Part shown: in pieces, positions 39,864-50,055 of the stretch
Position numbering within the stretch: position 1 is the stretch's first letter
Layout of the letters: the number at the start of each line of letters is the position of its first letter
Assembly: GCF_001748225.1 (NCBI RefSeq)
Contig: NZ_BDFE01000006.1
Location: 1 to 64,000, forward strand
DNA: 64,000 bases
DNA from: Desulfoplanes formicivorans
Lineage (GTDB): Bacteria; Desulfobacterota; Desulfovibrionia; Desulfovibrionales; Desulfomicrobiaceae
Direction of reading: 5' to 3'
Position numbers and translations under genes: made by a program
The notes under the pieces: generated by a model
Seen by the model: the letters and a program-made list of their open reading frames with translations, nothing else
What the model was told of the DNA's origin: nothing
The model's database searches: none

Positions 39864-40328
39864 TGTCCGTGATTCTCCCTGGATAGAGGTTGATGAGAAC
39901 GGGGGCATCCTGTTGTGTGTTTCTTACATGTCCCCAAAATATCAACCCATTACTATGACCAGAAATGAAACAATGACAAATACAAAGAGGTGATGAAGTG
40001 ATGTGATACGTATTGATCAAGTCTATGGTTTGCCCGCTTGAGCCAAGGCCTTGCCGAATCCCGGGGAAAGGGACAGGCAGACGACAAAAATTCTGAAGGT
40101 GAAGTCACAGGAGAGCGTCTGATCGGAATCGGGAAAGGGGGCCGAAGATCATTGCCAGGATTTGGCGGTTGAGGCGCCTGCATCAAGGTTTCAGGCTCTC
40201 CGCCTGGCAACCGGTTCAGGCTGGTCCAGCCTGCCTGATCCACGGTGGCCTTTTTTTTCCATATTGCTTTTTCAATCGAGTCAAGTTAGAGGCGTCCAAT
40301 ATTCTTTCATGACTATTCGAGGATGCAC
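39864..40328. other. Intergenic region between divergent yedE and feoA
   Basis: About 465 bp with promoters expected on both sides. I looked for a Fur-type palindrome ahead of feoA and did not find a convincing one. One copy of a 12-base motif found three times in the window (AATACAAAGAGG) is at 39979-39990. No gene or RNA is recognised. Confidence 0.4.
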
Positions 40329-40571
40329 ATGAAAATACCCATGCGCCAACTACGAGTGAACCAGAAGGCCCGTATTGTATCCGTGGCCGCCCGGGGAGAA
40401 CTGGGGCGGCGGATTCGGGATATGGGCCTGGTCCCCGGTACCGAGATAACCATTGTCGGGCAGGCTCCCCTCAAAGACCCCGTGGCCCTCAGACTCAAGG
40501 GATTCACCATGAGTCTGCGCAACAGCGAAGCCGATCATATCGTCGTGGAAACGGACGAACAGGAAGGATGA
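40329..40571 (+). CDS. feoA: Ferrous iron transport protein FeoA
   Basis: The 80-residue protein is a single SH3-like FeoA domain: I-R-D-M-G-L-V-P-G-T-E-I-T-I-V near 31, P-V-A-L-R-L-K-G-F-T-M-S-L-R near 52. FeoA is a small cytoplasmic partner of the FeoB Fe2+ transporter. GAGG six bases before the ATG at 40329 favours it over the ATG at 40323. Its stop overlaps the feoB start. Confidence 0.93.
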   Translation: MKIPMRQLRVNQKARIVSVAARGELGRRIRDMGLVPGTEITIVGQAPLKDPVALRLKGFTMSLRNSEADHIVVETDEQEG

Positions 40572-42739
40572 TGGATCGAACAATACGTGTCGCCCTGGCT
40601 GGCAATCCCAATTGCGGCAAGAGTACCACCTTCAACGCCATTACCGGGTCCAAGGAGCGGGTGGGCAATTATCCCGGCATCACCGTGGAGCGCAAGGAAG
40701 GTTGTTCCTGTGTACACGGAGCCACCTTGCGCATCATTGATCTGCCCGGAACCTATTCTCTGACGGCCTATTCCATGGAAGAACTCGTTGCCAGGCAGGT
40801 GCTGGTGGATGAGAAACCGGAATTGGCCATTGATGTGGTTGATGCCACGGCCCTGGAAAGGAGCCTGTATCTGGCGGTCCAGCTCATGGAACTGGGCGTG
40901 CCTGTTGTTCTGTCCATGAACATGATGGACGAGGTGCGCCAGAAGGGTATCCATATTCATACCCGTGAGCTGTCCGCGCGTTTGGGGGTTCCTGTTGTCG
41001 AGACCGTGGCCAAAAGCGGCAAGGGTATTGGCAAGCTTTTGAAGACCGTGGTTGATTATGCCCAAAGCGAGGCCATCAAGGAGTTTGCGCCCCTGCATAT
41101 TCCCTATGGTCCTGATCTGGATGGCGTCATCCAGCGCATGGTTGACCGGATCGAAGAAGAACAGTTCCTTACCGAGCGGTATCCTGCCCGATTCATTGCG
41201 GTCAAATATCTGGAAAACGATGAAAGCCTGATAAAACGGGGGCGCAGCCAGGGTGAGCTGGGACTGGAACTGGAGGCCATGGCCAAAGAGGCCGAGGCCA
41301 TGTGCGAGCGTGATTCGGAAACCTATCCCGAAGCGGTTATTGCCGACTACAGGTACGCGTTCATCAATGATATCCTCAAGGACGGGGTTCTGGAAATCGA
41401 ACCCACCACCAATGCCCATACCCGTTCGGACAGGATTGATGCGGTTTTGACCCACCAGATCTTGGGGCCCGCTCTCATGCTGGGCATTTTGTATCTCATG
41501 TTCACGGTGACCATCGAATGGGGAGCCTATCCCCAGGAGCTGCTCATTGCCGGGTTCGAGTGGTTCGGGGATGTGTGCACCCGGATTCTCCCCGATGGGC
41601 TGCTGCAGTCCTTGGTTGTGTCGGGCATTGTCGACGGGGTGGGCGGGGTGCTCAGTTTCGTGCCCCTGATACTGATCATGTTCTTCATGCTCACTTTTCT
41701 GGAAGATCTTGGATACATGGCCCGCATGGCCTACATGATGGACCGCGTTTTTCGCTTTTTCGGCCTGCACGGCAGTTCGGTCATGCCCTTTATCATTTCG
41801 GGGGGCATTCCGGGAGGGTGCGCGGTTCCGGGCATCATGTCCGCCAGAACCCTGCGCAGTCCCAAGGAGCGCCTGGCCACGCTGGTGGTCTCGCCGTTCA
41901 TGATGTGCGGTGCCAAATTGCCCCTGTTCATCATGATGACCGCAGCCTTTTTCCCCGGCAGTGCCGCACGGGTCATGCTTCTGTTTTCCCTCGGGGCGTG
42001 GGCCGTGGCCCTACTTACGGCCCGAATCCTTCGCTGGGCTGTCATCAGGGGGGAACCAACTCCCTTTGTCATGGAGCTCCCTCCGTACAGAATGCCCGCC
42101 TTAAGCGGCCTATGGATGCATACCTGGGAAAGAACCTGGCAGTATATCAAGAAGGCCGGCACGGTCATCCTGGCCATTTCCATTCTTATCTGGGCGGCCA
42201 TGACCTTTCCCCGGCTTCCGGCCGAGAAGATTCAGTCCTTTGATGCCCGGGTGGCCGCTGTCATGCAGGATCAGCAGCTTTCTCCGCAAGAACAGGAGAT
42301 GAAGATCAATGTCATTCGCGGAGAACAGGCGGAAATGGCCTTGCGCAATACGGTTGCCGGCCGTATCGGCGATGCCTTGCTGCCCGCGACCTCGCTTGCC
42401 GGCTTCAACTGGAAGATGAACATTGCCGTGCTGGGCGGTTTTGCGGCCAAGGAAGTCATTGTTTCCACCTTGGGGACGGCCTATTCCATGGCCGAAGTTG
42501 ATCCCGAAAATCCCGCAGCCCTGGGGGAACGTCTCAAAAGCGACCCCCACTGGACCATTCCTGCGGTCATCGGATGCATGACCTTTATTCTCCTGTATGC
42601 CCCCTGTTTTGTCACGGTGATTGCCATGGCTCGGGAATCCAGCTGGAAATGGGCTGTTTTTGCGGTTGTTTTCAATACCTTGCTTGCCTACATCCTGGCC
42701 GTGATTATTTATCAGGCCGGATCGGCCATGAGTGGATAA
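40568..42739 (+). CDS. feoB: Ferrous iron transporter FeoB
   Basis: The 723-residue inner-membrane protein has an N-terminal G domain (G-N-P-N-C-G-K-S-T near 12, D-L-P-G-T-Y-S near 59, N-M-M-D near 118) and a helical GDI region. Two Gate domains with core helices follow (G-G-I-P-G-G-C-A-V-P-G near 415 and a later G-A-L/F-A-A-K-E). It imports Fe2+, which an anaerobe in reduced, iron-rich surroundings would use. AGGAAGG precedes two adjacent ATGs (40568 and 40571), and the first overlaps the feoA stop (ATGA). Confidence 0.96.
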   Translation: MMDRTIRVALAGNPNCGKSTTFNAITGSKERVGNYPGITVERKEGCSCVHGATLRIIDLPGTYSLTAYSMEELVARQVLVDEKPELAIDVVDATALERSLYLAVQLMELGVPVVLSMNMMDEVRQKGIHIHTRELSARLGVPVVETVAKSGKGIGKLLKTVVDYAQSEAIKEFAPLHIPYGPDLDGVIQRMVDRIEEEQFLTERYPARFIAVKYLENDESLIKRGRSQGELGLELEAMAKEAEAMCERDSETYPEAVIADYRYAFINDILKDGVLEIEPTTNAHTRSDRIDAVLTHQILGPALMLGILYLMFTVTIEWGAYPQELLIAGFEWFGDVCTRILPDGLLQSLVVSGIVDGVGGVLSFVPLILIMFFMLTFLEDLGYMARMAYMMDRVFRFFGLHGSSVMPFIISGGIPGGCAVPGIMSARTLRSPKERLATLVVSPFMMCGAKLPLFIMMTAAFFPGSAARVMLLFSLGAWAVALLTARILRWAVIRGEPTPFVMELPPYRMPALSGLWMHTWERTWQYIKKAGTVILAISILIWAAMTFPRLPAEKIQSFDARVAAVMQDQQLSPQEQEMKINVIRGEQAEMALRNTVAGRIGDALLPATSLAGFNWKMNIAVLGGFAAKEVIVSTLGTAYSMAEVDPENPAALGERLKSDPHWTIPAVIGCMTFILLYAPCFVTVIAMARESSWKWAVFAVVFNTLLAYILAVIIYQAGSAMSG

Positions 42740-42837
42740 TCCTGGGGCAGACATGATTTTCTTTGACCTCTCAAAAGAAATTCGTTACTCCTAACTTTCA
42801 TCAGGGTGTACTTCATGACCATGGCGGGGTAGGGAAT

Positions 42838-43128
42838 ATGTTTTCAGGCAAACGGTGCAGACGACGGGGAATACGGCGACACGGCAAGTGCTCGGGTTGC
42901 AGTTTGAGGGCCCAATGTCCTCTTTCCAAGCTTCAAAGAGGTGAAAAGCGATTGGTGGCCTGCATGAAATCGAACCGACAGTTGATTGGTCATTTGGCGG
43001 CCATGGGCATCCTGCCTGGAACCGAGATCAATGTAGTCAGCAATAACGACAGCTCGCTGGTCGTTGGAGTCCGGGGCGGACGCGTGACCTTGTCCCGGGA
43101 AATCGCGGACACGATCATGGTTGCCTGA
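42838..43128 (+). CDS. Second FeoA-domain protein with N-terminal cysteine cluster
   Basis: The 96-residue protein has a basic, Cys-rich head (Cys at about 7, 17, 20 and 26, as C-x9-C-x2-C-x5-C) joined to a FeoA domain (H-L-A-A-M-G-I-L-P-G-T-E-I-N-V-V near 56, V-G-V-R-G-G-R-V-T-L-S near 80). The head could bind Zn2+ or an Fe-S cluster and sense iron, like FeoC in other bacteria; that is inference. AGGGA six bases before the ATG at 42838 supports this start; the frame is open to 42763. It follows feoB by 98 bp. Confidence 0.8.
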   Translation: MFSGKRCRRRGIRRHGKCSGCSLRAQCPLSKLQRGEKRLVACMKSNRQLIGHLAAMGILPGTEINVVSNNDSSLVVGVRGGRVTLSREIADTIMVA

Positions 43129-43207: not shown

Positions 43208-43426
43208 ATGTCCTGGGACAGTATTTTTGTTTATGTGATCATCATCATCGCCGCCGTGTACATCATCAGTCGGTTCGTGCGCAGGAAAGGACTCGGCTGT
43301 TCGGGCTGCCCGGGAAATTGTTCGGGAACCGAGGACGGCGAGGCCTGCAGAGCCTGTCCCATGGCCCAGCACACCCTCAGGGACAAGGACGAGACGTCTT
43401 CCAGTGACAAGGATGCGTCCTCGTAA
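43208..43426 (+). CDS. FeoB-associated Cys-rich membrane protein
   Basis: The 72-residue protein has one membrane helix (F-V-Y-V-I-I-I-I-A-A-V-Y-I at 6-20) then G-C-S-G-C-P-G-N-C and C-R-A-C-P in the cytoplasmic tail. This is the pattern of the small FeoB-associated Cys-rich family (PF12669-like) encoded at the end of feo operons. It may bind Fe2+ delivered by FeoB. GAGG six bases before the ATG at 43208 supports the start. A 60-bp perfect palindrome follows the stop by 15 bp. Confidence 0.85.
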   Translation: MSWDSIFVYVIIIIAAVYIISRFVRRKGLGCSGCPGNCSGTEDGEACRACPMAQHTLRDKDETSSSDKDASS

Positions 43427-43441
43427 GTGATGGCTGCCTTG

Positions 43442-43501
43442 CCTGTAATCAGAAAAGCACACATGATACGCGCGTATCATGTGTGCTTTTCTGATTACAG
43501 G
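43442..43501. repeat. Perfect 60-bp palindrome after the feo operon
   Basis: Positions 43442-43471 are exactly complementary to 43472-43501, base for base, with no spacer; the centre reads GATACGCGCGTATC. The RNA would fold to a roughly 28-bp hairpin with a tiny loop. It starts 15 bp after the last feo stop codon, so it may act as terminator or 3' stabiliser in both directions, although no T tract follows the stem. Confidence 0.95.
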
Positions 43502-43854
43502 AGCAGATAAAGAGGATAAAACGTATAAAAAATAGCCATGGCAACGCGCGTGGTGTATAAAAATCGACCAGGTGCAACATGGGTCGAAAAACGATAAATT
43601 TTTTTATTGTTATATTAAGTGGTTAGTAATTTCTAAAATATGGTTTGATTTTTGCTTGGGCTTTGTTCCTGGAGCCGGGTACCCCAGGGGCATATGAGGG
43701 TTCCTGACTGCCGTGTCCCGGTGTTGCCAAGGCCGGGTCATTGATTGTATGCAGGATCGTCTTGGCATGTGAGAATTGAACTTTTCCAGCAAGTTGCGTC
43801 ATACCTTTATTTCATCATCGAGTCATCCGGGCTCTTGTTACCTAAGGACCTCTC
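43502..43854. other. AT-rich region upstream of RND operon
   Basis: About 350 bp. An AT-rich stretch at 43515-43625, including two GTATAAAAA runs, should contain the promoter of the efflux operon. No gene or regulator-binding palindrome is clear. Confidence 0.4.
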
Positions 43855-45333
43855 ATGCGGTTGTCGCTTTGTTTGTCATTTGTCATCATTCTGGTTGTCG
43901 TGACGGGTTGTGCTCCCTTTGCACCCCGATCAGCGGACATCGCCCTGCCGGATCTTCCTGCCAGGTATTCGCTGTATGTCGAGAATGCTACCCTGAGCAT
44001 GCCCTGGTGGCAGGAGTTCGGGAGCAGCGAACTGGATCGGTTGATGGATATTGCCCTCAGTCAGGGGTTTTCCATCCGTCAGGCCCGGGCCCGTCTCGAC
44101 CAGGCCCGGGCTTCAGCCCTCAAGGCCGGGGCTTCCCTTGTTCCCTCGGTTTCCCTGGAGGCGGGATCGTCTCATACCCGGCAGAAGTGGAAAAATGGTT
44201 CCAGCAGCGGGCAGACATACACGACCACCAAGGAGCATTCCCTGGGGCTGGCCGCCCAGTATGAACTGGATCTCTGGGACCGGATCGGGTCCACGCGTGA
44301 GGCCGAGCGCCTTGAAGCCCAGGCCACCCAGGAAGATGTGCACACCGCCTTCATGACCCTGTCCGGTCAGATTGTCGAAAACTGGGTCGAGATTCTCCAG
44401 GTGCGCGGGGAGCAGGCCCTGGTCAAGGAGCAGATTCAAACCAATGAGCGGTATCTTGAGGTTCTGGAACTGCGATTCGACAATTCTCTTTCCACCGCAT
44501 TGGATGTTTTGCAGCAACGCGAGGCACTGGCCCGTTCCCGGGCCATGCTTCCCACACTTGAAGCCCGGGAACGGGTGCTCATGCATGAAACTGCGGTCCT
44601 CATGGGCAAATCGCCTGATTTTGATCTCGGTCTGACCGGCCATGGTCTGCCCGAGCCCCTGCCTCTGCCCGGCACAGGCATTCCGGCCGATCTTTTGGCC
44701 AGCCGTCCCGATGTGCGGGCCGCCGGGCTGCGTCTCAAGTCTTCCCAGTGGGAAATCGCCAGTGCCCGGGCTGATCGACTTCCCGCCATCACCATAACGG
44801 GCAGGGCTGAATATTCCAGTGATCAGTTCAACACCCTGTTTGACAATTGGCTGGCCAATCTGGCCGCAGGGCTGACTGGGCCGATTTTTGACGGCAATCG
44901 TCGATCGGCCGAAGTGGACAGAACCCGGGCTGTGGCTCGTGAACGTCTGGCCGCGTATCAGCAGACTGTCATGGAAGCGGTCCGGGACGTGGAAAACGCC
45001 CTGGTGAACATTGACAAGCAGCAGGCCTATCTTGCGGCCACCCAGAAGCAACTGGACATCGCCCGGATGACCTTGCAGCAGGCCAGGCAGCGCTATGAAA
45101 ACGGGGTGGTCACCTATTTGACTGTACTGACCAGCCTCCTGAACGTGCAGTCGTTGGAACGAACCCTGGTCCAGGGCCAGGCCGATCTGCTTTTGTATCA
45201 GGTGGGCCTGCATCGGGCACTGGGGGGAACATGGTATCGCAAGCTGGAAGAGCAGGCGCAGACATCGATCCATGACAAAGCGGTCACGCCGACCATGGAC
45301 ACCACGCATACCAGTGAACAAGGACAATCATGA
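43855..45333 (+). CDS. RND efflux outer membrane lipoprotein (NodT/OprM-type)
   Basis: The 492-residue protein has a lipoprotein signal with lipobox V-T-G-C at 16-19, so it is anchored in the outer membrane after acylation. It shows the two repeated coiled-coil halves of the outer-membrane factor family (P-W-W-Q-E-F near 50; D-L-W-D-R-I near 140; R-P-D-V-R-A-A near 283; G-P-I-F-D-G-N-R near 341). It is the exit duct of the tripartite pump encoded by this operon. Its stop overlaps the adaptor start (ATGA). Confidence 0.93.
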   Translation: MRLSLCLSFVIILVVVTGCAPFAPRSADIALPDLPARYSLYVENATLSMPWWQEFGSSELDRLMDIALSQGFSIRQARARLDQARASALKAGASLVPSVSLEAGSSHTRQKWKNGSSSGQTYTTTKEHSLGLAAQYELDLWDRIGSTREAERLEAQATQEDVHTAFMTLSGQIVENWVEILQVRGEQALVKEQIQTNERYLEVLELRFDNSLSTALDVLQQREALARSRAMLPTLEARERVLMHETAVLMGKSPDFDLGLTGHGLPEPLPLPGTGIPADLLASRPDVRAAGLRLKSSQWEIASARADRLPAITITGRAEYSSDQFNTLFDNWLANLAAGLTGPIFDGNRRSAEVDRTRAVARERLAAYQQTVMEAVRDVENALVNIDKQQAYLAATQKQLDIARMTLQQARQRYENGVVTYLTVLTSLLNVQSLERTLVQGQADLLLYQVGLHRALGGTWYRKLEEQAQTSIHDKAVTPTMDTTHTSEQGQS

Positions 45334-46571
45334 CGGAATCAAACAGCATACGCAGACAGTGGTGCAGGAAGATCTTCGGTTTTCTCCTGCCTGTGGTCAT
45401 TGTCGTTCTGGGGGCCTTGGGAGCCAAGTATTTTCTCGACTCAAGGCCCAAGCCCACGAAAAAGGCCCGGATCACCCTGGCACCCTTGGTGACGGTGCAG
45501 AAGGCCGCCTTCGGCAAGGAACAGGTCGTTATCCAGGCCATGGGAACGGTTGTGCCCGCGCGGGAGACCGTGCTCAGCCCCCAGGTGGCGGGCCGCATTG
45601 TCCATCTGGCCCGGGGATTCGAGCCGGGCGGGATCCTGGCTCAGGGAACCCGTGTGGCGGGCATTGATCCCAAGGATTTTGAGTTGAACGTGCAACAGAA
45701 ACAAATGGCCCTGGTGCAGGCCAAGGCGGCCCTGGCCCTGGAACAGGGGCAGCAGGCCGTGGCCCGGAAAGAGTGGGAGCTGTTGCGTGGGAATCGGAAC
45801 ATGTCGTCGGAAGAGGCGACCCTTGCTCTGCGCAAGCCTCAATTGGAGCAGGCCCAGGCCGATGTGACCAAGGCCCGTCTGGATCTTCAGCAGGCCGAAC
45901 TTGATCTTGCAAGGACATCGGTGGTTGCCCCGTTCAATTGTCTTGTTCTGGAAAAGAACGTTGATCTGGGTGCCCAGGTGTCCACGCAAACAACGATTGC
46001 AACCCTTGTGGGCACGGATGCCTATTGGGTGGAGACCTCCATCCCTCGTGACCGGCTGTCATGGATCAAGGTGCCCAAGGGGGCAGCGGGTACCGGCAGC
46101 ACGGCCCGCATCCGTTCGGCCGTGACAGACAACGCGCGAACCGGTCAGGTCATCCGGCTTCTCGGGGATATCGAATCCCAGGGACGCATGGCCAGGGTGC
46201 TTGTGCGGGTGGATGACCCCCTTTTTCTCAAGGAGAACGATCCTTCCCAGGTGCCCCTTTTGCTGGGAGAATATGTACATGTGGACATTTTGGGCCGGGT
46301 TCTCGAACATGTGGTTGCCATACCCAGGGATGCCCTGCGTGATGGCAATACCATCTGGATAGCCACCCGGAAGAACACCCTGGACATCCGTTCTGTGGAG
46401 ATTGTCTGGCGTGATGCCCATGTGGTCTATCTTGCCGGAGGCGTGCAGGATGGAGAGCAGATCATTCTTTCGGATATCGCCGCTCCGGTTCAGGGCATGG
46501 AAGTACGGATCGCGGATGAGGTATCCGGGGCCGCCACAGGTACCATCAAGGGGAGCGCGAAGAACTCATGA
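45330..46571 (+). CDS. RND efflux periplasmic adaptor (MFP)
   Basis: The 413-residue protein has one N-terminal membrane helix (16-35), a barrel-sandwich hybrid (Q-A-M-G-T-V-V-P near 70, S-P-Q-V-A-G-R-I near 84), a coiled-coil hairpin (about 115-200) and a beta-barrel with V-V-A-P-F-N near 195. It links the pump to the outer-membrane factor. ATGA overlaps join it to both neighbours, indicating coupled translation of the complex. Confidence 0.93.
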   Translation: MTESNSIRRQWCRKIFGFLLPVVIVVLGALGAKYFLDSRPKPTKKARITLAPLVTVQKAAFGKEQVVIQAMGTVVPARETVLSPQVAGRIVHLARGFEPGGILAQGTRVAGIDPKDFELNVQQKQMALVQAKAALALEQGQQAVARKEWELLRGNRNMSSEEATLALRKPQLEQAQADVTKARLDLQQAELDLARTSVVAPFNCLVLEKNVDLGAQVSTQTTIATLVGTDAYWVETSIPRDRLSWIKVPKGAAGTGSTARIRSAVTDNARTGQVIRLLGDIESQGRMARVLVRVDDPLFLKENDPSQVPLLLGEYVHVDILGRVLEHVVAIPRDALRDGNTIWIATRKNTLDIRSVEIVWRDAHVVYLAGGVQDGEQIILSDIAAPVQGMEVRIADEVSGAATGTIKGSAKNS

Positions 46572-49500
46572 GCACGTTTTCCACCTCCTCCAAGGGTCCC
46601 ATTGCATGGATGGCTGGCAATTCCGTTGCCGCCAATCTGATCATGATCGTCTGTCTCATCGGCGGGTTGATCGTAGGCAGTCATATCAAGCAGGAGGTCT
46701 TTCCCGATTTCGATCTGGATATGGTCAGCGTGACCGTTGCCTATCCCGGAGCCAGTCCCGAAGAGGTTGAAAAAGGGATCATCCTGCCCATTGAGGAGGC
46801 CGTTCAGGGCCTCGACGGTGTGGATGACGTCACATCTTCGGCAAGCGAGGGCTCGGGATCGGTTATCGTTGAGATCGTTGAAGGAGAAAATATCCAGCGT
46901 CTTGCCCAGGACATCCAGAGCGAAGTGGACAGGATCACCTCGTTTCCTGATGACGCCGAAGAACCCAGCGTGACCATCGTGTCCCGCAAGCGCGAAGTCG
47001 TGTCCCTTGCCCTGCATGGTGCTCAATCCGACTGGGTGCTGCGGGAAACGGCAGAAGATTTGCGGGACCGCTTGATCCAGGACCCGAACATCACCCAAGT
47101 GGAGCTTCACGGCGTGCGCGATTACGAAATCAGCGTGGAGGTCCCCCAGGAAAACCTGCGCCGGTACAATCTGACCATTGCCGAAGTGGCTGCCCGTATT
47201 GACAAGGCCTCGGTTGACCTTCCCGGTGGCGGGATCAAAACCAGTGGTGGAGAAATTCTTGTCCGGGTCAAGGAACGCAAGGATTACGGACGGGAGTTCG
47301 GCAAAATTCCCATCATCACCGGCAATGACGGAACCAGTGTCCTGCTGGAGGATATCGCCGAGATCAATGACGGGTTTGAGGACAGTGACATCTTTGCCTC
47401 GTTTGACGGGCAGCCGGCCGTCCTCATTGATGTCTATAGAATTGGTGACCAGACACCCATTGATGTGGCCGACGCTGTCAAACGCAATGTCGAGACCTTC
47501 AGGCAGATCCTTCCCCAGGGACTTTCCCTGAACATCTTGAAGGATCGTTCCAATGTCTACAAGCAGCGTCTCGAACTGTTGCTCACCAACGGTTACATGG
47601 GGCTTGGACTGGTGTTTCTGTGCCTGGCCCTGTTTCTCGAGGCCCGCCTTGCGTTCTGGGTAAGCATGGGCATTCCCATCTCCTTTCTGGGCTCGCTGCT
47701 GCTTTTGCCCGGGTTTGGGGTGACCATCAACATGATCTCCCTGTTCGCCTTCATCATTACCCTGGGTATTGTGGTGGACGATGCCATTGTGGTGGGCGAA
47801 AACGTGTACAATTACCACCAGAAGGGCATGTCCTTTCTGGACGCTGCCATCCAGGGGGCCCGGGAAATCGCCATGCCCGTGACTTTCAGCGTGCTGACCA
47901 ATGTGGTGACCTTCATGCCCATGTATTTTGTGCCCGGGGTCATGGGAAAGGTTTTCAGACAGATTCCCCTGGTGGTTGTCAGCGTGTTTGCCGTTTCCCT
48001 GGTGGAAAGTCTGCTCGTGCTTCCGGCCCATCTGGGGCATCAGCGTGACCGGCGCCGCAGCGGGATCACCGGCTGGATGCACGGCATGCAACAGCGCTTC
48101 AGCAAGTGGTTCATTCATGTGGTCAAGACCAAGTACGGTCCGTTTCTGGATCTGACCCTCAAGTACAGGTATCTGACCATGTCGGTGGGCGTGGCCATCC
48201 TGCTGGTGACCGTCGGATACGTGCAAAGCGGTCGCATGGGCTTGACCCTGTTCCCCAAGATCGAGGCCGACTATGCCAAGGTGACTGCCGTGCTTCCCTA
48301 TGGAACGGCCGTGGAAAAGACCAAGGAGATCCAGAAAATCCTGGTGGATGCCGGCAGGGAAGTGGGAGAAGAAAATGGCGGGGACCAATTGGTCACCGGT
48401 ATTTTTGCCCGCATCATGGACGGGGGCTCCACCTCCGAGGTTCGGGTCTATCTCACCGATCCCGAGGTTCGGCCCGTGAGCACGGCCGATTTCACCCGCA
48501 TGTGGCGCGAACGTGTTGGCGATCTGGTGGGTCTGGAATACATTACCTATGAATCGGATTCCGGAGGGCCGGGTTCGGGCAAGTCCCTGACCGTGGAGCT
48601 CAGCCACCGGGACATCAATGTTCTGGAAAAGGCCAGTGCAGAACTGGCCCGTGAGCTGGAAGTCTATCCCAACGTCAAGGACATTGATGACGGATTTTCT
48701 CCGGGCAAACGGCAGTATGATTTCAAAATTCGCGACTCCGCCCGGGGGCTGGGACTTCGGGCCGAAGATGTGGCCAGACAGGTGAGGTATGCCTTTTACG
48801 GGGCCGAGGCCCTGCGCCAGCAGCGGGGCAGAAACGAGGTCAAGGTCATGGTCCGGCTGCCCAAATCCGAACGGGTTCTGGAGCACAATATCGAAGAACT
48901 CATTCTCCGGACGCCTTCGGGAGTGGAGATCCCCCTGCGCGAGGCCGTGACCATGACACCGGGCCGGGCGTATACCACCATTGACAGGCATAACGGGCGA
49001 AGGACCGTGGAGGTGACTGCCAATGTCATTCCCCAGAGCAAGGCCAACGAAATCCTCAATGCCCTGATGGCCGAGAGCCTGCCCTGGCTGGTTGAGAAGT
49101 ATCCCGGCCTTTCCTACGGGTTCGAGGGCAAGCAGGCCGACATGCGCGAGTCCATGTCCAGCCTTGTGGAAGGATTGCTTCTGGCCTTGCTTGTCATCTA
49201 CGGGCTCCTGGCCGTGCCCTTCCGCAGTTATGCCCAGCCGTTGATCATCATGGTCAGCATCCCCTTCGGCATTGTGGGTGCGGTCCTCGGTCATCTGCTC
49301 ATGGGATATTCCCTGAGCCTCATGAGCCTGTTCGGTATTGTTGCCCTGTCCGGGGTGGTGGTCAACGATTCCCTGGTGCTCATCAATTTTGCCAACCGCA
49401 AGCGTCAGGAAAACGGGATGAATGCCCATGATGCGGTCCTTTCTGCCGGTGTTGCCCGGTTTCGGCCGATCATTCTGACTACATTGACCACCTTTGGCGG

Positions 49501-49672
49501 TCTGGCTCCCATGATTTTCGAGACTTCCAGGCAGGCCCGATTTCTCATCCCCATGGCCATCTCCCTGGGATTCGGCATCGTCTTTGCCACCCTGATCACC
49601 CTGGTTCTGGTGCCCTCCCTGTACATGGTCATTGTTGATGCCATTGAGATACTGCGTTGCAGGGGCAAATGA
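46568..49672 (+). CDS. RND family efflux permease
   Basis: The 1034-residue inner-membrane pump has twelve helices and two large periplasmic loops. Marks include F-P-D-F-D-L-D near 43, the proton-relay G-I-V-V-D-D-A-I-V near 400 in helix 4, and a late G-I-V-A-L-S-G-V-V-V-N-D-S. The HAE-type features fit drug, bile salt or solvent export; there is no heavy-metal (CusA-type) Met triad in view. Substrate remains open. It overlaps the adaptor gene and is followed by a strong terminator. No regulator gene is adjacent. Confidence 0.93.
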   Translation: MSTFSTSSKGPIAWMAGNSVAANLIMIVCLIGGLIVGSHIKQEVFPDFDLDMVSVTVAYPGASPEEVEKGIILPIEEAVQGLDGVDDVTSSASEGSGSVIVEIVEGENIQRLAQDIQSEVDRITSFPDDAEEPSVTIVSRKREVVSLALHGAQSDWVLRETAEDLRDRLIQDPNITQVELHGVRDYEISVEVPQENLRRYNLTIAEVAARIDKASVDLPGGGIKTSGGEILVRVKERKDYGREFGKIPIITGNDGTSVLLEDIAEINDGFEDSDIFASFDGQPAVLIDVYRIGDQTPIDVADAVKRNVETFRQILPQGLSLNILKDRSNVYKQRLELLLTNGYMGLGLVFLCLALFLEARLAFWVSMGIPISFLGSLLLLPGFGVTINMISLFAFIITLGIVVDDAIVVGENVYNYHQKGMSFLDAAIQGAREIAMPVTFSVLTNVVTFMPMYFVPGVMGKVFRQIPLVVVSVFAVSLVESLLVLPAHLGHQRDRRRSGITGWMHGMQQRFSKWFIHVVKTKYGPFLDLTLKYRYLTMSVGVAILLVTVGYVQSGRMGLTLFPKIEADYAKVTAVLPYGTAVEKTKEIQKILVDAGREVGEENGGDQLVTGIFARIMDGGSTSEVRVYLTDPEVRPVSTADFTRMWRERVGDLVGLEYITYESDSGGPGSGKSLTVELSHRDINVLEKASAELARELEVYPNVKDIDDGFSPGKRQYDFKIRDSARGLGLRAEDVARQVRYAFYGAEALRQQRGRNEVKVMVRLPKSERVLEHNIEELILRTPSGVEIPLREAVTMTPGRAYTTIDRHNGRRTVEVTANVIPQSKANEILNALMAESLPWLVEKYPGLSYGFEGKQADMRESMSSLVEGLLLALLVIYGLLAVPFRSYAQPLIIMVSIPFGIVGAVLGHLLMGYSLSLMSLFGIVALSGVVVNDSLVLINFANRKRQENGMNAHDAVLSAGVARFRPIILTTLTTFGGLAPMIFETSRQARFLIPMAISLGFGIVFATLITLVLVPSLYMVIVDAIEILRCRGK

Positions 49673-49695
49673 ACACAGCATGAATTCTACCCATA

Positions 49696-49732
49696 CGAAA
49701 AAAGCCGGGAACATTGTTCCCGGCTTTTTTCG
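49696..49732 (+). terminator. Intrinsic terminator of RND operon
   Basis: CGAAAAAAGCCGGGAA at 49696-49711 pairs perfectly with TTCCCGGCTTTTTTCG at 49717-49732 around a 5-nt loop. The T run in the right arm makes it a strong terminator 24 bp after the stop codon. It is symmetric and could work both ways. Confidence 0.92.
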
Positions 49733-50055
49733 TTATAGTGTCAGATTTGATCTGTCCGTCACACCCTTTTGAAGGAGCCAACACGCCTGTTTCTTGTGCT
49801 CAAGTGTTCCCCTTTGCTTGGCAGTACGCACTTTGTAAAGCCGTTTCGTAAAACCGCCTTGGGTTTCAAAATCCTGCGCGAGGTTTGGTTTCTTTGGGAA
49901 AAGGTCAATTGTCCCCTGGAGATGGTTTCAGGAAGATGGCGCCCGAAGATATTCAGCTTGCCCAGCAAGTGGTTTAATCGGGTCTTCACTAAACTGTTGC
50001 AGGATCAGGATCAGAATTTCCCCTCCCCATCTCCGGAAAACAAATCCAAGCGGTC
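49733..50055. other. Region between converging operons, no supported gene
   Basis: About 320 bp. A 101-codon frame on the plus strand (49769-50074) has an AAGGAG nearby but no familiar residues, and it runs into panF. I do not call it. Confidence 0.35.

Follow-up and report, generated by a model that had tools for sequence, protein, structure and literature searches.

A perfect, spacer-free 60-bp palindrome behind the feo operon of Desulfoplanes formicivorans, best read as an intrinsic terminator at the extreme of the length range

We analyzed a 64-kb stretch of the Desulfoplanes formicivorans genome (hereafter, the window), in which a feo operon is followed on the same strand by an operon for an RND efflux system. 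A perfect palindrome lies between them, starting 15 nt past the stop codon of the last feo gene (43426) and ending 353 nt before the start of the next gene. In window positions, the features are as follows.

40323–40571, + strand: feoA (PF04023, 74.5 bits)
40568–42739, + strand: feoB (PF02421, 213.1 bits)
42781–43128, + strand: second FeoA-domain protein, start codon provisional (PF04023, 50.7 bits)
43208–43426, + strand: last feo-operon gene, a small Cys-rich membrane protein (FeoB_associated, 25.9 bits against a cut-off of 27; protein searched from 43211, start 43208 read from the sequence)
43442–43501, + strand: perfect palindrome of 2 × 30 nt, spacer-free (repeat search), the feo operon's putative intrinsic terminator
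43442–43456, + strand: left outer arm CCTGTAATCAGAAAA, whose A tract is complementary to the tail and forms the T tract of the – strand (sequence, repeat search and fold)
43457–43486, + strand: core stem GCACACATGATACGC / GCGTATCATGTGTGC, with the RNA loop GCGC at 43470–43473 (fold)
43487–43501, + strand: T-rich tail TTTTCTGATTACAGG, the right outer arm (tail score 4.54)
43855–45333, + strand: outer-membrane efflux protein (OEP), first gene of the RND efflux operon (Pfam search)
45330–46571, + strand: HlyD-type protein of the RND efflux operon (Pfam search)
46568–49672, + strand: AcrB-type protein of the RND efflux operon (Pfam search)

Another hairpin of the window (49695–49733; 19-nt arms with 1 base between them and paired A/T tracts) lies 22 nt past the RND operon; it is terminator-like and shares the design of the 60-bp palindrome.

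The inverted-repeat search bore out the perfect, spacer-free palindrome reported in a preliminary description of the window: the arms at 43442–43471 and 43472–43501, 30 nt each, are complementary at 30/30 pairs (100%) with a gap of 0 nt. The left arm consists of CCTGTAATCAGAAAA followed by GCACACATGATACGC, and the right arm of GCGTATCATGTGTGC followed by TTTTCTGATTACAGG. None of the window's other nine listed inverted repeats is as long, the next perfect one having arms of 19 nt. For 30 pairs to match by chance at a specified centre has a probability of about 1e-18. When 699,503 sampled bases were resampled 10 times under a first-order Markov model, arms of up to 13 nt arose (gap of at most 8), with 0 or 1 of at least 12. 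The genome search for the 30-nt arm that the preliminary description had proposed placed it at a single site in the 3,000,979-base genome (26 contigs) with up to three mismatches allowed; the central 24 bp likewise had no second copy in the genome at up to three mismatches. A comparison against Rfam gave ten matches at E ≤ 1, all far under their gathering scores (e.g., 34.2 against 211 bits), and an identity as a microRNA precursor was rejected; all ten were to microRNA precursor models, which a perfect hairpin would be expected to attract.

Folded as RNA, the palindrome forms a 28-bp stem with a 4-nt GCGC loop, and the 104-nt stretch around it (43427–43530) reaches –52.1 kcal/mol (z –9.9), a stability matched by 0 of 200 shuffles. 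The preliminary description had set the palindrome apart from ordinary terminators as having neither a loop nor a T tract, and neither objection holds. The folded RNA of a spacer-free palindrome has 4 unpaired nucleotides, and hairpins of perfect palindromes are described as keeping 4–5 nt unpaired (PMC8053094). The core stem GCACACAUGAUAC/GUAUCAUGUGUGC around GCGC has the G–C pairs and the short loop of an intrinsic-terminator stem. Immediately 3′ of the 15-nt core arm, the right arm carries TTTTCTGATT (43487–43496; 7/10 T), a modest T tract that was overlooked because the complementary A tract of the left arm makes the tail resemble stem. From 43487, TTTTCTGA contains 5 T in 8, the rule of our mechanical terminator scan, and the AAAA at 43453–43456 and TTTT at 43487–43490 are opposed A and T tracts like those of a bidirectional terminator. 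By symmetry, the tail score is identical on both strands. In the scan of the window, the palindrome's own stem was absent from the list, and four overlapping rows (43469–43486 and its mirror) represented a G–T-rich 7-pair stem inside one arm; the scan requires a T tail after the stem that it extends, and being listed by it is not a defining feature of intrinsic terminators.

The comparison within the genus covered two genomes, D. formicivorans included; the other, G001 (hereafter, the sister), is a draft that is 77% complete. Sister contig C304 (locus L033) holds the gene run in the same order around the corresponding site: the end of FeoB is 74% and the OEP 71% identical to those of D. formicivorans, and the second FeoA, FeoB-associated and HlyD-type proteins were recognized by eye in the list of open reading frames. 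The OEP gene of the sister (L033 1748–3166) lies in two frames with a stop between them, either a draft error or a real break. In this one genome, a terminator-like hairpin stands at the corresponding site: 40 nt past the corresponding stop, at L033 1355–1386, the sequence AAGCGCACATG TTG TATGTGTGCTT, followed by further Ts, forms an 11-pair stem with a 3-nt loop and a T-rich tail and was listed as terminator-like. The stem is short and imperfect (G–T allowed), and the sister's 97-nt stretch, taken as a whole, has no outstanding stability: 9 of 200 shuffles fold equally well.

The two hairpins are alike in sequence. In the core of the palindrome, GCACACAT / ATGTGTGC is similar to GCGCACAT / ATGTGTGC in the sister, the sister's T run (nine Ts after the core GTGTGC) follows the same ATGTGTGC, and the exact 12-mer ATGTGTGCTTTT is common to both. 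Their local alignment scores 29, a value reached by 0 of 5000 shuffles, while the best score against the sister hairpin among the other 47 perfect hairpins of the genome sample was 22; the stem halves match, and most of the central bases are gapped. When the whole intergenic region was aligned with MAFFT, the two hairpins did not come to lie opposite each other, and only the local alignment paired them. From that alignment and the matching place in one 77% complete draft, the palindrome probably corresponds to a plain intrinsic terminator, in lengthened or sharpened form, and we take the sister comparison, a likeness of sequence and place, to be the decisive result for the terminator reading.

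The sister also bears on how the tail of the palindrome should be judged. The tail score of 4.54 at 43487 is reached by 1.05% of single intergenic places; when it is treated as the highest score among the arm's 25 places, it has p of about 0.11, meaning that about 11% of intergenic places do equally well, and is not significant. The single-place figure is the fairer one because the place is fixed externally, by the sister's T run after the same ATGTGTGC. Even by that figure, the T tract of the palindrome is modest, and it is weaker than the nine Ts of the sister. A looser null that takes the best of 10 places anywhere (95% point 4.16) is too lenient for a 30-nt arm; the stricter nulls were arm-specific and drawn from intergenic places.

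We then considered the palindrome among the perfect hairpins of its genome. The census took in the window together with 40 further stretches, 41 pieces that sum to 699,503 nt or 23% of the genome, and counted perfect inverted repeats with arms of at least 12 nt and a gap of at most 8, of which 48 were found against 0–1 expected. Arm lengths were 30 (the palindrome, the longest), 27, 21, 20, then four of 19, and shorter; arms of at least 13 are said to be scarce in the E. coli genome (PMC6060812), which marks the arm length of the palindrome as unusual. Perfect hairpins were abundant behind gene ends: 44 of the 48 were not deep in called genes, and 32 of these 44 intergenic hairpins lay 3′ of a called gene at a distance of no more than 300 nt, compared with 1448 of 4000 random places (36%), fractions that are rough given weak gene calls, the random-place control using identical calls. 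The first caller gave 275 genes (56% coding) and the second 456 (71%, before the last threshold), both incomplete; the published coding share of the genome is 86.5% (PMC5460402). Two small genes that had been searched against Pfam were added by hand, one of which puts the palindrome 15 nt past a stop. Labels of "inside gene" that crude picking of open reading frames had attached to 20 of the 48 hairpins were rejected, spurious antisense frames being behind at least some of them, the palindrome's included.

By the stricter null, 19 of the 44 had a T tail with p ≤ 0.05 on at least one strand, compared with 195 of 2000 random places, and 8 of the 44 had one on both strands; the looser null raised the first number to 26 of 44. 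The other 25 lack a significant T tail on both strands, so palindromes of other kinds occur as well, and a perfect palindrome in this genome need not be a terminator. Gaps of 0 to 8 nt were found in 2, 3, 4, 6, 14, 9, 5, 3 and 2 of the 48 hairpins, respectively. If 20 hairpins had 4-nt loops made up at random, one would roughly expect about 15 : 3.75 : 1.25 for gaps of 4, 2 and 0, and the observed 14 : 4 : 2 is close to this, so a missing spacer is about what chance gives among tetraloop hairpins. The absent spacer requires no separate explanation; the unusual trait is the length of the arms, which puts the palindrome at the far end of a graded series of perfect hairpins. The second longest hairpin of the census (L079 7279–7335, G000:C9) has arms of 27 nt, a loop of AAA and tail scores of 3.54 and 3.53, under the null's 95% point, and another hairpin, GGCCTGCACA...TGTGCAGGCC, follows directly after it.

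Similar palindromes occur outside the genus. In 200,000 sampled bases of G026, a relative of the same order, we found spacer-free palindromes with arms of 24 (L184 10097–10144) and 18 nt (L183 4818–4853). Both are perfect, as here, and the 18-nt one has the form AAAAG...CTTTT, but they are shorter and are known by sequence alone. The 69 loci fetched from relatives (534,229 nt, sister contigs included) held 26 perfect hairpins with a longest arm of 20, a count that gives no fair rate because nearly all of these loci are centred on feoB and rich in coding sequence.

Taken together, we consider the palindrome to be the Rho-independent (intrinsic) terminator of the feoA–feoB–feoA2–FeoB-associated operon, with a probability of roughly 0.9. 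Past the last feo gene, RNA polymerase would read first the left arm and next the core part of the right arm; the core stem, in which 13 bp of the 15-nt arms close around the GCGC loop, would fold and meet the weak TTTTCTGATT stretch, and the transcript would be released upstream of the RND efflux operon. An RNA that ran through the whole right arm would form an extra-long stem. That termination takes place here, how efficient it may be and any stabilizing effect it might have are things we infer from the geometry, the setting and the sister. Because pairing is possible between the T tract and the left arm's A tract, both strands of the element read alike; by its paired tracts it has the form of a bidirectional terminator, and termination in both directions would be a prediction. 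The outer pairs past the tracts are unnecessary for termination, so the perfect match there is left unexplained by terminator function.

Terminators of this form have been described. Intrinsic terminators with paired A and T tracts are named bidirectional in passages of the TransTermHP (PMC1852404) and TERMITe (PMC12207403) papers. TransTermHP drops calls in which the two tails hybridize, so its authors had met the paired-tail form; they also name Desulfovibrio desulfuricans G20 as one of the non-Firmicutes in which over 60% of tested genes are followed by a high-confidence terminator (PMC1852404). The TERMITe account gives a median loop of 4 nt for every species examined and notes possible pairing between U tracts and upstream A tracts (PMC12207403), and in E. 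coli, most inverted repeats after stops (arms of at least 8, spacer of at most 8) are reported to be parts of intrinsic terminators (PMC6060812). With the bidirectional terminators of these papers (PMC1852404, PMC12207403), the palindrome shares the G–C stem, the 4-nt loop, the T tail directly after the core, the opposing A tract and the site after a stop. It differs in pairing that continues 11 bp past the AAAA/TTTT tracts, in 30-nt arms with no mismatch, in its modest T tract and in a downstream gene on the same strand; as that gene is co-directional, there is no convergent unit needing the second direction. Of the "special 3′ end" suggested in the preliminary description, the place stands, 15 nt after the last stop of the operon, but not the specialness: the palindrome is best read as an ordinary A-stem-T intrinsic terminator at the extreme of the length range. 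A perfect palindrome with no spacer that follows an operon can be a normal terminator whose T tract is hidden by symmetry, and a hidden T tract is worth checking ahead of more exotic readings.

The origin of the symmetry is a separate matter from its function. The terminator reading would hold unchanged if the 30-bp symmetry came from a recent template switch in a quasipalindrome, one arm having been copied off the other, and we regard this origin as plausible, at somewhat less than even odds. The mechanism is established in E. coli: template-switch correction of quasipalindromes, as described in PMC7202029 and PMC8794818, turns imperfect hairpins into perfect ones, which for the palindrome is a suggestion only. 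The sister's stem is short and imperfect, so the long perfect arms were either gained on the D. formicivorans branch or have disappeared from the sister, and the outer bases are perfectly matched yet superfluous for termination. Against this, the ancestral arm could not be identified (the left arm scored against the sister's upstream sequence as highly in 1564 of 2000 shuffles, and the right arm against its downstream sequence in 319 of 2000), the genus comparison consists of two genomes, and stepwise selection for pairing would have the same outcome. The "recombination product" of the preliminary description survives in part: the arm's single place speaks against a repeated element, and a local template-switch origin is possible.

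A bolder form of this idea, which we think improbable, is that a single template switch made an ordinary terminator into the 60-bp palindrome and that the palindrome persists as the lineage lacks the SbcCD nuclease, which would otherwise cut it. A 60-bp palindrome may be prone to cleavage, as the preliminary description held, and the lower limit for hairpin cleavage by SbcCD in vitro is given as palindromes of 20–36 bp (PMC4245961, 2014). SbcC (TIGR00618) gave no match in the D. formicivorans genome at E ≤ 0.001, the same search detecting 14 of 14 controls (1 over the cut-off); with SbcC undetected, one force against palindromes would be gone. SbcD (TIGR00619) gave a single match below the cut-off (56 against 77.65 bits; 13 of 14 controls detected), and this match is a 421-aa SbcD/Mre11-like phosphoesterase at L127 613–1878. 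In a survey of 41 genomes that scored 14 candidates per genome, SbcC had some match in 23, a match over the cut-off in 0 and a strong match (E below 1e-40) in 7 (G003, G005, G007, G011, G013, G020 and G030). Perfect hairpins with arms of at least 16 numbered 21 in 699,503 nt of D. formicivorans, 1 in 50,163 of the sister, 11 in 800,000 of genomes without a strong SbcC match (G009, G012, G026 and G029) and 4 in 600,000 of genomes with one (G003, G013 and G030); we claim no link between SbcC and hairpin rate because the counts are small and base composition differs (GC 52% in the D. formicivorans sample, 50% in the sister and 58–62% in the seven others). If the idea were true, the terminators of relatives without SbcC would drift to long perfect palindromes, and terminators of that kind would preserve a natural record of quasipalindrome correction.

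The remaining alternatives concern what the element is, and all fare far worse. Many operators are palindromes, and the perfect dyad symmetry and the transcription unit starting 353 nt downstream would suit an operator at which a dimeric or tetrameric regulator controls the feo genes or else the downstream RND operon. However, the central 24 bp have no second genomic copy at up to three mismatches at which a co-regulated site might be recognized (a lack compatible with a regulator of a single site), and the palindrome sits 15 nt past a stop codon and 353 nt ahead of the next start. Operator half-sites are usually shorter than 30-nt arms, and the sister alignment matches the stem halves while gapping most of the central bases. 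The protein-binding site put forward in the preliminary description is very unlikely on these grounds and in view of the plain terminator-like hairpin at the sister's site.

An assembly artefact, with a spacer or mismatches in the true sequence, is slightly less probable still. The genome is a draft from short reads only with gaps closed by software: strain Pf12B was assembled from paired-end Illumina reads (350-bp inserts, 370×) using Velvet with a hash length of 95 and Platanus gap closing (PMC5460402), and gap closing at the palindrome may have been a source of error. Yet the reads reach 370×, and the 60 bp fit within one 95-mer, so single k-mers extend into unique flanks; as a k-mer of odd length is never its own reverse complement, the usual route to palindrome artefacts is closed. 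Judged from these assembly settings and from the similar hairpin core in the sister, the artefact raised in the preliminary description is unlikely.

The terminator reading leaves least room for a repeat. REP elements are intergenic palindromes, and the palindrome is a long perfect intergenic inverted repeat in a genome that has another repeated palindromic element, but REP elements are repeated whereas its arm has a single place at up to three mismatches, and the sister has an alignable terminator hairpin and no empty site, so a REP-like palindrome or a mobile-element remnant with abutting ends is the least credible account of all. The other element is a repeat of about 200 bp with full copies at G000:C16:3416–3676, C15:173558–173766, C20:2958–3167 and C16:10990–11192 (loci L211–L214 and L123–L126), three of them 84–90% identical to the query copy, and a partial copy at C9:99284–99377 (78%). 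The exact pattern GCATATTCTTCCGCAT ... ATGCGGAAGAATATGC, a perfect hairpin contained in all four full copies, was found in 0 of the 40 other genomes searched. The repeat could be a small non-coding mobile repeat.
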